Positions 3,012 to 22,456 of a stretch of DNA of 26,043 nt are shown here, in pieces (position 1 is the first letter of the stretch; the number at the start of each line of letters is the position of its first letter). Both the position numbers and the translations under genes were made by a program. The DNA lies in the IMG/VR virus record IMGVR_UViG_3300019886_000021, positions 1 to 26,043 of that record. The stretch is one strand, 5' to 3'. The notes beneath the pieces were generated by a model. That model ran no database searches. It was not told the DNA's origin and was given only the letters and a program-made list of their open reading frames with translations. This DNA is from a virus.

Positions 3012-3950
3012 ATGCCACGTATTCGATCGATCAAGCCGCAGTTCGCGAGCGACGAGAAGCTGACCCTCGTCAGTCGCGACGCCCGCCTGACGTATGTGCT
3101 CATCTGGACCCAGTCCGACGACGAGGGGCTGCTCGGTGCGTCGACTCGCCAACTGCTTGGTGAACTCTACCCGTTGGATGATACGGTGACAGGAGCCGTG
3201 CTCGAGAGCTGGATCGCCGAACTGCTCGCCATCAAGGTCATTCGGATGCGCGAGACCCGGGACGGCGCGCGCGTCATCGAGACCGTGAAGTGGAAGGACC
3301 ACCAACGGATCGACAGGCCACAACCGTCGAAGCTGCGCGCACTTCTGAAGCCGCTGGCGGCGCATTCGACGAACGATTCGACGAACGATTCGACGAACGA
3401 TTCGACGAACGATTCGACGAACGATTCGCGACTGGAGGTAGGAGTAGGAGTTAAAAGCTTAACAGCGGGTAGTACTCACAGATCTGTGTTAGGGAGAAGC
3501 GCGTCCACAATTCGTGTGGATAACTCAAGCGCACCGCCCGCTGACCAGCCACCACCCGCTGAACCGCAACCACCCGCTCCGCTGTCCTCTCGCGAGGACG
3601 TGAACGGCAACGGCGCCAGCAACGGCCCCCGCCCGCTGCTGCCCGAGGCCGCCTTCAACCTCCTCGCGGCGTTCTACCGGCGTGCCACTCCCGAGCGCTA
3701 CGCCGACGTGCTCCGCCAGCTCGGGGAGACGCTCACTGATGGCGGCACCAGGTTCGAGCGCGACTGGGTGCGTGCCGTCGACGACAAGCACCTCGAGTGG
3801 GCCTGCGTGCAGACCATCCGCGCCGGACCCCAAGATCACGGCAAGGCCATCGTGTTCGTGCTGAAAAAGCTGCGCGACACGCGGCTCGAGGTGCTCTCGG
3901 CCAGGACCAAGGTGAGCGAAGCGCGGCCCCCTCTTCCCGCGGAGACCTGA
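3012..3950 (+). CDS. Replication-initiator-like protein (winged helix, low-complexity linker, C-terminal domain)
   Basis: 312 residues. The N-terminus RIRSIKPQFASDEKL..SRDARLTYVLIW..SDDEG is the hallmark of a widespread phage protein group with an N-terminal winged helix, usually annotated as replication or hypothetical proteins; the domain spans about 1-105. Residues 120-139 are five TNDS repeats, followed by a Pro/Ser-rich linker to about 205. The C-terminal part (about 208-300) has helical segments (LLAAFYRRATPERYADVL) and could contact a replisome partner. The layout, an initiator with repeats and an A+T-richer tract inside its own gene, resembles lambda O and its internal origin; that parallel is inference. 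Only a weak Shine-Dalgarno (gagga, 2995-2999) precedes the ATG, with 12 bases of spacing. Confidence 0.68.
   Translation: MPRIRSIKPQFASDEKLTLVSRDARLTYVLIWTQSDDEGLLGASTRQLLGELYPLDDTVTGAVLESWIAELLAIKVIRMRETRDGARVIETVKWKDHQRIDRPQPSKLRALLKPLAAHSTNDSTNDSTNDSTNDSTNDSRLEVGVGVKSLTAGSTHRSVLGRSASTIRVDNSSAPPADQPPPAEPQPPAPLSSREDVNGNGASNGPRPLLPEAAFNLLAAFYRRATPERYADVLRQLGETLTDGGTRFERDWVRAVDDKHLEWACVQTIRAGPQDHGKAIVFVLKKLRDTRLEVLSARTKVSEARPPLPAET
3369..3428 (+). repeat. Five perfect 12-bp direct repeats (iteron-like)
   Basis: acgaacgattcg is repeated five times without a mismatch and without spacers, encoding TNDS five times. G+C is 6 of 12 per unit, well below the surroundings. The array lies in the linker of the replication-initiator-like gene, next to an A+T-richer tract, where lambdoid phages carry origin iterons. 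Confidence 0.9.
3504..3523. promoter_or_regulatory. DnaA-box-like site within an inverted repeat
   Basis: tccaca (3504-3509) and tgtgga (3515-3520) form a perfect inverted repeat around a five-base centre. The right arm extends to tgtggataa, a perfect DnaA box on the minus strand. It lies 86 bases after the last iteron. A chance match of nine bases is possible but is less likely in DNA this rich in G+C. Confidence 0.45.
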
Positions 3951-5805: not shown

Positions 5806-7619
5806 TGCCGGCCGTGGCCCTGTTCGACCTGGACGCCGCCGTCGGGCCGCTCGGTCAGGACTTGACGGGGCTGACGGCGAACGACATCGACGTCGTCCTG
5901 CTGTCGGTGCGCGGCTTCCAGACGAGCGACGTGCTCACGGGCGCCGTCTTCACGGCGAAGGTCGCCCTCACCGACAGCGACACGGCGCCGACGACGATCC
6001 AGAAGACGTGGACGCCGACAACCCCCACGGGGCCGCTCCTGCCGAGCATAACGGCGCTCAGCCCCACGGCCTTCCTGCTCGCCTTCCCGCTCGTGCAGAG
6101 CGACACCCTGGCCCTCCTCGTGCCGCGGTTCTACAGCGTGCGCGTGAGCCTCCTGCGGCAGGGCATTGCGTACACGCGCACGCTCCAGACGGGCGTGGTG
6201 TCGGCCGTGCTGGGCTGGACGACCTTGGGGGGCGCATACGACGCGATCACGCTGCAGGCCGCGGAGCGCGTGGCCCTCACCGGGCAGTTGGGGTTCGTCA
6301 CGGCGGGCGCGATGACCGACGCGCACCTGCTCGCGGCCGTGGGGCTGGGGTGCTACTGGAAATACTCCGGCAGCTTGGGATCGCGCAGCGACCTCAACCC
6401 CTTCACGCGCGCGAGCACCGCCTATCAGCTGAGCGCATCCGGCATCTGGACGAGCGTGGGCAACAACGTGCTGCGCGACGGGCACTATCTCCTCGACGGC
6501 CTCCAGCGCACGCTGCTGGAGCGCGCGTCACTGAATAGCGCGCTCTGGTCGAGCGATGCGTCGAATGCGGCATGGGGGAAGGCCAACCTCGGCACGCTCA
6601 CGCCGGTCACCTCGTGTATCGCCGGGCAAGTCGCGCAGAAGCTGACGACCGCCGGGCTCGGGAATCCGGGTCAGGTCTTTCAGAATATCGGAACATTTGT
6701 CAACGGACAGACGGATACCCTCTATTTCATCGTCGAGAACGTCAATGCGGTTGCCTCGTCGCTCGGGATTTACGATGCTACGGCCGGCGCGTGGGTCTGT
6801 CTCGTGAATTATACGTGGGCGACCGGGGCGACGACGCTGAATCAGGGGACGGGGACCTTCGGCTCGCTCCTGCTCAAGGCCGTGGGGCCGAACGATGGCG
6901 CGCTCGCGCTGATCTGGGTGAGTGGTACTGGCACGGGCGCGGGCACCGGCGCGGCTGGGAATGGTCGTAGGGTCTATCTCTATCCGACCGGAACCGGAAG
7001 CAACGCGCTCGCCACGATCTTCCATCACGGCCAGTTCGAGGCGACCTTCGCGAACTCGACGAGCCCGATCGTAACGGGCGCCGCGGGCGTCTCGCGGTCG
7101 GTCGACAGCACGCTCAACTTCCCCTTCGTCCCGACCGCCGCGCAGTGCGCCGCGCTGGGCGTGACACTCTACGACGACCTCATCATGCTTCGCGCATCGC
7201 TGCAGACCTTCCAGAGTGCGACCACCGTGCTGGGTGGCACGCAGGTCGGCGGAGTGAACATCTTCGAGCTCTGGAATGGCTCCGCGGGCGAAGGCCAGCC
7301 CGTGACGGCGCAGCTGCGCGGCGCCGCTGGGACAACGTCCGAGTCGGATGCGACGGCGCTCGCCTTCGTGCCGGGCGATCGACTGCAACGCATGGTGACG
7401 ATCTCGCCGCTCGGCGCGGTCACGATCACGGTCGTCAAGAATGGCGGGTCGCCCTCGACGACGACGGGGACGGGGCTCGCCGGGGGCTGGCCGGCGGCCT
7501 TCACCGCGGCCGTCCTCACACTCAACGACAACAACGCCAACCGCAGCGGCGACATGGCGCGCACGACGGCGGTGCTCGCCCTTGGCGTCCAGACCTTGGC
7601 GACGATGGCGGCGCTCTGA
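5805..7619 (+). CDS. Fibre-like virion protein with Ig-like N-terminal module and carbohydrate-binding-type domains
   Basis: 604 residues. Residues 1-135 carry a module with VFTAKVALTDSDTA and TTIQKTW, then SVRVSLLRQG, typical of BppU-like or Ig-like upper-fibre domains. NPFTRAS (198-204), LLERASL (237-243) and SDASNAAWGK (250-259) are the usual opening of the carbohydrate-binding-type beta domains seen in phage fibres. VSRSVDSTLNFPF and later strands look like a second lamin-G-like sheet domain. A receptor-binding or decoration role is inferred. Its position between the terminase genes is unusual. Bases 6661-6780 drop to 60 of 120 G+C, suggesting a swapped module. The short gene at 8609 is a paralogue of the N-terminal module. 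Confidence 0.72.
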   Translation: MPAVALFDLDAAVGPLGQDLTGLTANDIDVVLLSVRGFQTSDVLTGAVFTAKVALTDSDTAPTTIQKTWTPTTPTGPLLPSITALSPTAFLLAFPLVQSDTLALLVPRFYSVRVSLLRQGIAYTRTLQTGVVSAVLGWTTLGGAYDAITLQAAERVALTGQLGFVTAGAMTDAHLLAAVGLGCYWKYSGSLGSRSDLNPFTRASTAYQLSASGIWTSVGNNVLRDGHYLLDGLQRTLLERASLNSALWSSDASNAAWGKANLGTLTPVTSCIAGQVAQKLTTAGLGNPGQVFQNIGTFVNGQTDTLYFIVENVNAVASSLGIYDATAGAWVCLVNYTWATGATTLNQGTGTFGSLLLKAVGPNDGALALIWVSGTGTGAGTGAAGNGRRVYLYPTGTGSNALATIFHHGQFEATFANSTSPIVTGAAGVSRSVDSTLNFPFVPTAAQCAALGVTLYDDLIMLRASLQTFQSATTVLGGTQVGGVNIFELWNGSAGEGQPVTAQLRGAAGTTSESDATALAFVPGDRLQRMVTISPLGAVTITVVKNGGSPSTTTGTGLAGGWPAAFTAAVLTLNDNNANRSGDMARTTAVLALGVQTLATMAAL

Positions 7620-17330: not shown

Positions 17331-17343
17331 CGCGCGCGCAACA

Positions 17344-17374
17344 GGGGAGTGAGGGATTCGCTCACTCCCCCTTT
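17344..17374 (+). terminator. Probable intrinsic terminator after the capsid gene
   Basis: ggggagtgag (17344-17353) and ctcactcccc (17361-17370) pair perfectly over 10 bp with a 7-base loop, followed by cttt. The T run is short, so it may be partial and lower downstream expression relative to the capsid gene. It starts 13 bases after the capsid stop. Confidence 0.65.
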
Positions 17375-17385
17375 GCGGCGCATCC

Positions 17386-19361: not shown

Positions 19362-20099
19362 ATGCTGCTCTTCGGTTCTGGAATCGCGGTGCTCGTGCCG
19401 CCGGGTGCGACCCCGACGCCGGTCGTCTGCGCGACGCTGCAGGACGTGTCGGTCGACGAGAAGTGGACCGAGAAGGAGCTCTACGGCCGCTATCAGGCGC
19501 CCGAAGACGTGGCGCGCTCCGAGCTCAAGGTGTCGGGGAAGATCAAGATCGCGCGCATCAACGCGGCGTTCCTCTCCGCCGTGCGCGCGGGGTCGACCGT
19601 GGCCACGGGATCGACGCAGCTCTCGCTGAACGAGACGAGCGCGATCCCGACCACGCCGTTCACCATCACCGTGACCCACTCGGCGACGTGGGTCGCCGAC
19701 CTGGGCGTCTATGACGCCACCGCCGGGATCAATATGGCGCGCGTCGCGAGCGCCCCGGCGACCGGCCAGTACACGGTCGCGGCCGGCGCCTACCTGTTCG
19801 CCGCCGCAGACACGGGGCACAGCGTCCAGATCACCTACACCTACACCGTCGTGACCGGCTTTACGGTCACGTACCTGAACCAGCTCATGGGGGCGGCGAC
19901 CACGTTCGGGCTCCATCTCTGGAACTCCTACGTCTCGAGCGCGGGGCTCGCGGCACAGGCGTACACCAAGTTCGGCGCCGTGCGCATCCCCGGGCTCTCG
20001 GCCTCGATCAAGAACACCGACTACACAATGTACGACCTGGATTATTCCATCTCGGCCGACGCGAGCGGGCTGATCTCGACCACCTCGACGACGGACTAA
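19362..20099 (+). CDS. Major tail tube protein
   Basis: 245 residues; aaggag (19350-19355) is a near-perfect Shine-Dalgarno six bases before the ATG. LLFGSGIAVLVPPGATPTPV, LQDVSVDEKWTEKELYGRYQ, LKVSGKIKIARINAAFLSAV, then YDATAGINMARVASAPATGQ, YTVAAGAYLFAAADTGHSVQ and an Asp/Ser/Thr-rich C-terminus are the usual layout of tail tube proteins of Gram-negative siphoviruses. It stacks in rings along the tape measure. The strong ribosome site suits a protein needed in many copies. Confidence 0.82.
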   Translation: MLLFGSGIAVLVPPGATPTPVVCATLQDVSVDEKWTEKELYGRYQAPEDVARSELKVSGKIKIARINAAFLSAVRAGSTVATGSTQLSLNETSAIPTTPFTITVTHSATWVADLGVYDATAGINMARVASAPATGQYTVAAGAYLFAAADTGHSVQITYTYTVVTGFTVTYLNQLMGAATTFGLHLWNSYVSSAGLAAQAYTKFGAVRIPGLSASIKNTDYTMYDLDYSISADASGLISTTSTTD

Positions 20100-20104
20100 T
20101 CGCG

Positions 20105-20485
20105 ATGACGGCGCCAGCAGCTCCGACGCTCACCCTCGGCGGGCGCGTGCTTGCCCTGCACGGGCTCCGCATGCAGCATGCCCGCGCAGGCATCCTCGAA
20201 AAAGTGAAGCTCGCCTCGGCCGAGCTCGCGCCGGACGCGACGGCGATCTCGCCCGCGCGGCTCGAAGCGATGATCGACGTCGTGTACGCGTCGGTGGACG
20301 ATCAGATCGCGCGAGCCGAGTTCGACGGGCTCTTGAACGCGCTCGGCATCATCGCCGGGCCCCGGCTGATCGCGAACGCCCTCGGTCCCGTGCTCGACGT
20401 CTCCGACTTCGGCGTGGAGGCCAAGGATGGCGCGGGGGAAGCCGCCAGCCCGGCGACGTCGACGTCGCCGGGCTCTACGGCCTGA
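20105..20485 (+). CDS. Tail assembly chaperone, short form (lambda G-like)
   Basis: 126 residues when read to the 0-frame stop TGA 20483-20485. RVLALHGLRMQHARAGILEK, DATAISPARLEAMIDVVYAS and DDQIARAEFDGLLNALGII give a small helical protein of the size and place of lambda gpG, between tube and tape measure. The last 20 residues after the GGGGGAA run are Ser/Thr/Pro/Ala low complexity, typical of the tail end of the short form beyond a frameshift site. These chaperones hold the tape measure protein during tail assembly. Confidence 0.75.
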   Translation: MTAPAAPTLTLGGRVLALHGLRMQHARAGILEKVKLASAELAPDATAISPARLEAMIDVVYASVDDQIARAEFDGLLNALGIIAGPRLIANALGPVLDVSDFGVEAKDGAGEAASPATSTSPGSTA

Positions 20486-20751
20486 TCGTCACGGCCACGG
20501 GATGGACCTTCGGCGAGGTGGACCAGCTGCTCCTGCGCGACGCGCTCCTGCTCACGCGGCACTGGGCGCGCACGCCGCCGGCGTTCGTCTCGCTCGCCCG
20601 CATCGCGCGCTGGCTGGGTGCGGCGCCGGCGCCGAGCACGGGCGCTGCGGATGCGGCATCGCCGACGCACGAGCCCGGCGCGCCGCTCGCGTACTCGACC
20701 AAGGACGAAATCCTCGCGTTCCAGGCGCGCGTGAACGGCGTGCAGCGGTGA
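20105..20751 (+). CDS. Tail assembly chaperone, -1 frameshifted long form (lambda GT-like)
   Basis: If ribosomes slip back one base near 20434-20440, translation continues in the other frame without a stop to 20751, giving about 215 residues. The second frame carries a real-looking protein: GDVDVAGLYGLIVTATGWTF, EVDQLLLRDALLLTRHW, then a Pro/Ala linker and KDEILAFQARVNGVQR. It has no good start of its own near the frame's first conserved residues (GTG 20518 lies inside them). Lambda, HK97 and many siphoviruses make G and GT by this mechanism, at the same gene position. Confidence 0.72.
20434..20474 (+). promoter_or_regulatory. Programmed -1 frameshift element
   Basis: The 0-frame codons gcg ggg gaa contain ggggg followed by aa (20434-20440); slipping back keeps perfect pairing of the glycine codon in the P site. 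Six bases later, 20447-20474 is a perfect 28-nt palindrome (agcccggcgacgtc and its complement), able to form an RNA stem of up to about 12 bp with a small loop, just where stimulatory stem-loops sit. The A-site match after slipping (gaa to gga) is imperfect. Confidence 0.62.
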
Positions 20752-20758
20752 GCGCCTC

Positions 20759-22456
20759 GTGAGTAATCCGGTCGGCAGCATCGACGTCGAGATCGCGGGC
20801 TCTGTCTCGGGGCTCACGGAGTCGATGGCGCGCGCGGCGGAGTCGGTCGAGAAGACGACCACGACGATGGGTACGGCGTTCGAAGGGATGCAGCACCGGA
20901 TCGAACATTCCGGCGTGCTCATCGCCTTCGCCGTGCAGAACATGCTCGATGGCCAGCAGACGGGCATTCAGCGGGCGATGCACTCGATCGCGCTCCTGGG
21001 GTTCGCGTTCGGCCCCGTACCGGGCGCGATCGCCACGGCCGCGGCGCTGACGATCGAGCACCTGCACAACCTGACGAAGGCCGCCGAGAAGGAGGTCGCC
21101 GAGTTCCAGAAGAAGATGGGCGACGCCGTGAACGCCGGGAACGTCGCCGAGCTGCAGCGGCAGTTGCAGGACGTGCTGGTCGGCACGCCGTTCGATCCGA
21201 AGAGCGGCAAGCTCGTGGCCGCGAGCCTCCTCGTACCCGGCACGTTCAAGGGCTCGCTGGAAGATTTGAAAGCGACGTGGGACAAACTGAACGCGGCGAA
21301 AACGGCGGCACTCCACGATCTGGGCGGCGCCGCCGAGGTGCGCAGTCTCCAAGGACAGCTCGACGACATCGGGAAGCAGTATCAGATCAAGAAGCAGGAG
21401 GCCGAGGCGCTCCAGGCCGATTTGGATGCGGCCGAACTCCAGCGTGAGCGCGCCGGCGCCGGCGACCTCGCCCCCGTCAAGGTCAGCGGCGGCCTGAGCG
21501 ATGAGGCCGCCAAGAAGAAAGCTGCTGCGGCGGCCGTCCAACTGCACCGCGCTCTGAACGCGATGTTCGAGGAGATGGACAAGAAGAGCGAGAAGGTCTT
21601 CGAGACCACGCTCGACGACGCGCTCAGGGCCACGAGCAAGTCCGTGCAGAAGCGCCTCGAGGAGAACGAGAAGGCCGCGAAAGAGGAGGAGGAGCTGCGG
21701 CGCCGAGCGCTCCAGGCCCAGGCGGCGGACGTGAAGATGTTCGACGCCGAGGTCGCCGCCGACCAGCGGCGCACGGTCGAGGAGATGACCGCCGAGTGGA
21801 CACGCGGCTTCGAACGGATTCAAGGCGCGGTGGAAACCACGTTCACGCAAATGCAGCACGCCGGCGCGCACGCCGGCGACTTCATGCGGAAGCTCGGGCA
21901 GGCGCTCGTGGCCGACTTCGTCCGGGGCGAGCTCAAGATGCTCGAGGTCCATCTTGCGACGAAGCTCGCGCAAACGGCGGCGGACAAAGCGGCGGCAGTC
22001 GCAGGCAAGGCCATTCATGTGCAGGACGCGCTCTCGAGCTTGGCCGCGAGTGCGTCGAAGGCGGCGGGGGAAGCCTTCGCCGCGATGGCCTCGATTCCGT
22101 ACATCGGGCCAGAGCTGGGTGCCGTCGCGGCGGCGGCGTCCTTCGCGGCGGTCATGGCGTTCGGGGCGCTCGCCTCGGCCGCCCAAGGCTTCGACGTGCC
22201 GGCCGGCCTGAACCCCGTCACCCAGCTGCACTCGGAGGAGATGGTGCTCCCCGCACACCTCGCGAACGCCGTGCGCGACATGGCCGGTGGCGGGAGCGCG
22301 GGTGGCCAGCCCGTGCACCTGCACATCCACACGATCGACGCGGTGGACACGGCACGCTGGGCGCGCACCAACGCGCCGATCTTGGGGGCGGCGGCGCTGT
22401 CGCACATGCAGGGCGGTGGTGGTGGCGGCACGGGCGGCGTGGGGCGGCGCGGATAA
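20759..22456 (+). CDS. Tape measure protein
   Basis: 565 residues from GTG 20759, directly after the chaperones. The N-terminal region has GSIDVEIAGSVSGLTESMAR and helices; the middle is charged coiled coil (SLQGQLDDIGKQYQIKKQEA, KSVQKRLEENEKAAKEEEEL). The C-terminal part is the common hydrophobic end of phage tape measures: MASIPYIGPELGAVAAAASF, VMAFGALASAAQGFDVPAGL, QLHSEEMVLPAHLANAVRDM, then Gly-rich. It sets tail length; at the usual 1.5 angstrom per residue, this predicts a short tail near 85 nm. It occupies the expected place. No peptidase or lytic domain was seen. Confidence 0.88.
   Translation: MSNPVGSIDVEIAGSVSGLTESMARAAESVEKTTTTMGTAFEGMQHRIEHSGVLIAFAVQNMLDGQQTGIQRAMHSIALLGFAFGPVPGAIATAAALTIEHLHNLTKAAEKEVAEFQKKMGDAVNAGNVAELQRQLQDVLVGTPFDPKSGKLVAASLLVPGTFKGSLEDLKATWDKLNAAKTAALHDLGGAAEVRSLQGQLDDIGKQYQIKKQEAEALQADLDAAELQRERAGAGDLAPVKVSGGLSDEAAKKKAAAAAVQLHRALNAMFEEMDKKSEKVFETTLDDALRATSKSVQKRLEENEKAAKEEEELRRRALQAQAADVKMFDAEVAADQRRTVEEMTAEWTRGFERIQGAVETTFTQMQHAGAHAGDFMRKLGQALVADFVRGELKMLEVHLATKLAQTAADKAAAVAGKAIHVQDALSSLAASASKAAGEAFAAMASIPYIGPELGAVAAAASFAAVMAFGALASAAQGFDVPAGLNPVTQLHSEEMVLPAHLANAVRDMAGGGSAGGQPVHLHIHTIDAVDTARWARTNAPILGAAALSHMQGGGGGGTGGVGRRG

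Follow-up and report, generated by a model that had tools for sequence, protein, structure and literature searches.

In the window (the whole stretch of DNA analysed, 26,043 nucleotides, which is one entire IMG/VR virus record), the gene for the major tail protein and that for the tape measure are separated by two overlapping reading frames, and a perfect palindrome follows closely after a run of five G in their overlap. This locus raises the question of whether the two frames are joined by a ribosomal slip, and whether the palindrome takes part in it. From the sequences of the window and its relatives, we consider it very probable that a tail assembly chaperone gene of the G/GT type carries here a cassette for -1 programmed frameshifting. 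The grounds for this reading are found in the relatives, i.e., the constant -1 relation of the frames, the in-phase slip site, the recurring stem and the peak of Shine-Dalgarno (SD)-like pairing. The features of the locus are as follows.

19362..20099, + strand: major tail protein gene, phrog_8234 (PHROG E 1e-38), directly upstream of G
20105..20485, + strand: G, predicted 0-frame tail assembly chaperone, 126 aa, phrog_7947-like, placed by synteny between the major tail protein and the tape measure
20416..20420, + strand: GGAGG, putative SD-like stimulator, separated by 13 nt from the first base of the heptamer
20434..20440, + strand: slippery heptamer G_GGG_GAA, with the five-G run at 20434-20438; in phase in 122/122 relatives
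20434..20751, + strand: T extension in the -1 frame, phrog_8018-like, stop at 20749-20751; predicted G-T fusion of 215 aa
20441..20446, + strand: 6-nt spacer, by sequence; 6 is the modal spacer among the relatives too
20447..20474, + strand: putative stimulatory hairpin, 12-bp stem with a UCGA loop; perfect DNA palindrome, -25.6 kcal/mol
20759..22456, + strand: tape measure protein gene, phrog_2854 'tail length tape measure protein' (E 2e-21)

Gene neighbourhood and reading frames in the window

The G gene begins five bases past the major tail protein gene, and the -1 frame stops seven bases ahead of the tape measure gene. The two frames occupy the space in which G/GT tail assembly chaperones are normally encoded. 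The upstream gene probably encodes the major tail protein, as judged from its position and profile membership, and its homologues were found in Acinetobacter phage 5W, Pseudomonas phage KT1 and the Brevundimonas phages Strzyga and Polewnik. The G family corresponds to phrog_7947 and the T family to phrog_8018, both of which stand in PHROGs without an assigned function; the G and T of the window are themselves too divergent for these profiles and were joined to them through alignments. The 'tail assembly chaperone' profiles phrog_344 and phrog_183 gave weak matches to single members only (E about 0.002), and searches of Pfam and PDB with G and T gave no credible match. The position and the frame relation, together with the weak profile matches, point to a chaperone, and a likely function would thus be assigned to two families that had none, phrog_7947 as G and phrog_8018 as T. 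A peptide-pattern search of IMG/VR detected no close relatives of the window's own G or major tail protein.

The slip region at 20430-20440, GCGCGGGGGAA, is read as GCG GGG GAA in the ORF 20105-20485 and is followed by GCC, and thus the bases are as described in the earlier note, which had placed a ggggg run followed by aa in the G frame. The third-codon-position G+C peak changes its frame at about 20434, from positions 1 mod 3 before to positions 0 mod 3 after, which is the expectation for a change of the reading frame. In the T frame, the first ATG, GTG or TTG appears only at 20518 (GTG), within the conserved core. The open -1 frame with a conserved protein past the site, which had been noticed earlier, is borne out by this coding signal and by the 122 relatives described below.

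G_GGG_GAA does not allow full re-pairing of both tRNAs as in X XXY YYZ, and it is no textbook site of this type because tRNA-Glu re-pairs imperfectly on GGA in the A site. The slip site had been regarded as nonstandard, but GGGGGAA turned out to be established in such genes (PMC10885494; PMC5506516; Bxb1). It is the sole form of the 'fivetwo' motif of PRFect, with about a thousand cases in SEA-PHAGES tail chaperones, and the same paper notes the imperfect re-pairing and suggests that G:U pairing aids the A-site tRNA at GGGGGAA (PMC10885494). GGGGGAA is common but little studied as a slip site.

Frame relation and slip site in the relatives

The relatives were traced via the major tail protein and then via the major capsid protein, which gave 67 IMG/VR loci. 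A search with an alignment of the T part gave 80 further loci and 8 loci in alphaproteobacterial MAGs, of which two are on long contigs and are thus probably prophages. For searches of the collections, the narrower alignment A3 was effective, whereas A1 and A2 were too broad and divergent. Iterated profiles of the two proteins identified both parts at 122 loci from IMG/VR, phages and bacterial MAGs; these include near-identical contigs, and 83 loci are distinct around the site.

T was in the -1 frame of G at all 122 loci. Fusion of the two proteins in one frame, which the earlier note had named beforehand as evidence against the frameshift, was sought and was found at 0/122. The overlap contained an in-phase heptamer in every case, GGGGGAA at 116 loci and GGGGGAG at 6. 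As in G/GT genes, the second ORF is thus shifted by -1 against the first and overlaps its 3' end, mostly with no start of its own, and a conserved slippery site is in phase within the overlap. In 5W, KT1, Strzyga and Polewnik as well, the gene after the tail protein contains the heptamer (GGGGGAA or GGGGGAG) in this phase, and the -1 frame encodes a T-like protein downstream of it. A sequencing error or a decayed gene, which might be suspected in a metagenomic assembly with a G-rich run, has a practically negligible probability as the cause of the broken frame, because the -1 relation is identical at the 122 loci, cultured phages and MAG contigs among them.

T might instead be a separate gene with its own start, reached by re-initiation or coupling, with no frameshift. 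Public records show an internal-start ORF in Acinetobacter phage 5W and the Brevundimonas phages, and a GTG is present in the window as described above. However, this GTG is within the conserved T core, no ATG, GTG or TTG is found in the T frame ahead of the core at 65 of the 83 non-redundant loci, and the conservation of GGGGGAA in phase would be left unexplained. Independent initiation of T is therefore very improbable. The public annotations start T at internal codons (7104-7337 in Acinetobacter phage 5W, our locus L002; 5776-5970 in L004; 7289-7483 in L005) and thereby truncate the conserved core. Annotations in this phage group thus miss or truncate T.

One further locus, L054 (5379-5426), is outside the 122 since the G profile missed it. 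Its site is C_CCG_GAA, followed by a 12-position stem after the usual 6-nt spacer; the -1 position of T is retained. CCCGGAA is the commonest form of the 'threetwotwo' motif of PRFect (PMC10885494). The second product could also be produced by transcriptional rather than ribosomal slippage on the G run, and a homopolymer run is indeed present in nearly all relatives. However, the run has only five G in the relatives, and known transcriptional slippage runs exceed five bases. In addition, L054 has no such run, and the hairpin at 4-7 nt and the SD-like element 10-15 nt upstream match the geometry of the ribosome. We consider this explanation still less probable than a separate start of T. The -1 ribosomal frameshift was therefore retained, and slippage in transcription, a separate start of T and an error of assembly were all rejected.

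The hairpin downstream of the slip site

In the window, AGCCCGGCGACGTCGACGTCGCCGGGCT (20447-20474) is its own reverse complement and begins six bases past GAA, with the arms at 20447-20458 and 20463-20474 and the loop at 20459-20462. The perfect 28-nt palindrome six bases after the slip, as claimed earlier, was thus confirmed, and simulations and shuffles indicated that it is not a product of chance. The next longest perfect palindrome in the whole window has 20 nt, and no palindrome of 28 nt appeared in 150 simulated windows with equal dinucleotide content. Perfect hairpins of at least 12 bp with loops of 3-8 occurred at 0.075 per simulated window, counted at any position (n=150). At its exact place, the stem exceeded 1000/1000 dinucleotide shuffles and 98% of the recodings that preserve the -1-frame protein. 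The 96-nt fold including the site was mildly unusual (z -1.4), because the region has about 69% G+C and folds strongly regardless. Position-specific stem tests were chosen for this reason, since the fold of a wide region is insensitive at this G+C content. A search of Rfam gave no match. The nearest relatives of the window (L006, L007 and L008) have different stems, and the case for the window's stem is made by the family and by its own improbability.

The stem test was performed with 23 divergent representatives, in which a stem starting 3-9 nt past the heptamer was scored at p < 0.05. A significant stem was detected in 18/23 against dinucleotide shuffles (Fisher 1e-21; 5e-20 without the window) and in 17/23 against synonymous recodings that keep the -1 protein (Fisher 4e-18; similar without the window), where the Fisher values assume independence and the stems of L024, L039, L061 and L158 look homologous. 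The significant stems start 4-7 nt after the heptamer, with a mode of 6, and their sequences are mostly unrelated between clades, as seen from the arms AGTCCGTAGAG/CTCTACGGACT in L007, GCAACCTCAGAG/CTCTGGGGTTGC in L015, GGGCGAAGAGC/GCTCTTCGCCC in L051 and GCTCCAGCTCAG/CTGAACTGGAGC in L054. In the largest clade (61 sequences), the stem is GCCCCCGGG/CCCGGGGGC, and 99% of the stem cells pair. Eleven cells were altered on both sides, as compared with a shuffled mean of 3.6; the both-side changes (GC to AU) are carried by two pairs, on which the covariation of this clade rests. G-U variants are also present, and sliding the partners lowers the pairing. Compensating changes, for which a search had been proposed in the earlier note, were found in these two pairs of the largest clade, beside the G-U variants; the nearest relatives of the window have other stems. 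Unrelated stems at a fixed distance of 4-7 nt, with G-U and compensated pairs, argue for selection on RNA pairing at this place. A stem 5-9 nt past the heptamer that is conserved as RNA pairing, as in dnaX, thus has its counterpart here at offsets of 4-7.

It is conceivable that the frameshift at G_GGG_GAA is real and the palindrome is incidental or otherwise used, e.g., as a DNA-level site or for transcript stability. The lambda site G_GGA_AAG has no significant stem (p 0.81), and neither do 5 of the 23 representatives, including Acinetobacter phage 5W. On the other hand, no DNA motif is common to the stems, and this idea does not accord with stems of unrelated sequence that return at 4-7 nt and include G-U and compensated pairs. 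We regard it as unlikely, and prefer the hairpin as a part of the frameshift signal.

Two further observations were made on the relatives. In Acinetobacter phage 5W (7060-7110), the 0-frame stop codon TAG lies directly after GGGGGAA and there is no significant hairpin; the stop codon may replace the stem as a pausing element in this phage. In the main clade (L014, L022, L048 and about 58 others, alignment A4), the slip-site GGGGG could also be a pairing partner for the CCCCC of the 5' arm, which would give a competing structure. A speculative proposal, to which we give a low probability, is that the hairpin is under strong positional and weak sequence selection and has been re-invented repeatedly 4-7 nt from GGGGGA(A/G), and that the C5-G5 pairing in the main clade could be a switch tuning the G:GT ratio.

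The upstream element, proposed mechanism and known systems

GGAGG in the window forms a duplex of -8.6 kcal/mol with the anti-SD, which beats every phase-matched control place in the G gene. Over 32 loci, the anti-SD pairing showed a peak 10-15 nt upstream of the heptamer; the 8-nt windows starting 13-17 nt before it had means of -3.2 to -4.0 kcal/mol, against a background of about -1.2 kcal/mol (sd 0.5). The element is missing in some relatives, e.g., L007 and L014. As in dnaX, an SD-like element is thus found about 10 nt upstream of the heptamer, both as the mean peak of the family and as the GGAGG of the window.

In the proposed mechanism, most ribosomes would read G (126 aa) through to the stop at 20485. 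With the decoding centre on GGG GAA, three elements would retain the ribosome and favour a slip of one base backward: the internal SD-like GGAGG would pair with the 16S rRNA, the five-G run would allow the glycyl-tRNA to re-pair on GGG one base back, and the 12-bp hairpin would be positioned at the mRNA entrance. A minority of the ribosomes would then proceed in the -1 frame and produce the G-T fusion of 215 aa. The G protein of lambda coats the tape measure, the tail tube protein is brought in by T, and the ratio of the two matters (PMC5009743). By analogy, G would coat the tape measure protein here and the T part would bring the major tail protein, with a fixed G:GT ratio presumably required in tail assembly.

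A contrast set of 13 cultured phages, the annotated ones found with an approximate generic actinophage chaperone query, had GGGGGAA in phase in 9/13, including Bxb1. Significant stems were detected in Bxb1, Power and Hoot, and none in Amethyst, Attoomi and lambda. The lambda G/GT genes (Xu, Hendrix and Duda 2004; PMC5009743) resemble the present case in the flanking major tail protein and tape measure genes, in a -1 shift that occurs shortly before G ends and in the products, a short G and a fusion. However, lambda slips at G_GGA_AAG with no significant stem, whereas the window has G_GGG_GAA with a strong hairpin and an SD-like element; this is a comparison of layout. The actinophage 'fivetwo' chaperones (PMC10885494; Bxb1) share the identical in-phase heptamer near the end of G in annotated joined genes, and some (Power, Bxb1 and Hoot) have significant downstream stems, as here. 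They differ in their actinobacterial hosts, no similarity to the G and T families of the window was noted, and the stems of the few phages examined are less regular and not as strong. Corynephage phi16 has a proposed internal SD (GAGG), GGGGGAA and a downstream RNA structure, but that structure is an H-type pseudoknot, unlike the simple hairpin with a 4-nt loop in the window, and the text consulted covers one genome and contains no comparative test (PMC5506516). E. coli dnaX shares the upstream SD-like element, the slippery heptamer and the downstream hairpin with a near-identical geometry, an 11-bp hairpin and a 5-nt spacer against 12 bp and 6 nt in the window (PMC8861025, PMC7282821). On the other hand, dnaX is a bacterial gene with another function, and both tRNAs re-pair fully on its A_AAA_AAG, with an efficiency of 50-80% (PMC8861025, PMC7282821). 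The known GGGGGAA and the dnaX-like three-part layout place the present case within a known phenomenon.

The stem had been called more extreme than usual in the earlier note. Its length of 12 bp is ordinary among frameshift stimulators, of which dnaX has 11 bp and HIV 12 bp (PMC8861025); the claim holds in part for tail genes, since structure after the slip site is described as rare in such genes in a paper on a Burkholderia phage, with reference to Xu et al. 2004 (PMC3091744). For a known phage frameshift, the predicted hairpin of the window is unusually clear and widely conserved. In the literature searched, which covered few subscription journals, no tail-gene site was found described with as much comparative support as that of this putative hairpin. 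The relatives provide a natural series of hairpins, in which the slip site and spacing are constant and the stems are varied, and with this series one could test in what way the frameshift efficiency at GGGGGAA depends on the length of the stem, the loop and an SD element.

Repeats were observed elsewhere in the window. A strong inverted repeat with 20-nt arms (85%) is located at 17337-17377, immediately past the stop codon of the gene for the major capsid protein, and contains a perfect 10-bp hairpin at 17344-17370 with no T run after it; it is possibly an mRNA-stability or terminator element. Two tandem repeats are within coding sequence, one at 608-764 with 3.5 copies of a 45-bp unit (RETIAAQRRTYYERH-like), and the other at 3364-3428 with 5.4 copies of a perfect 12-bp unit (NDST repeats).
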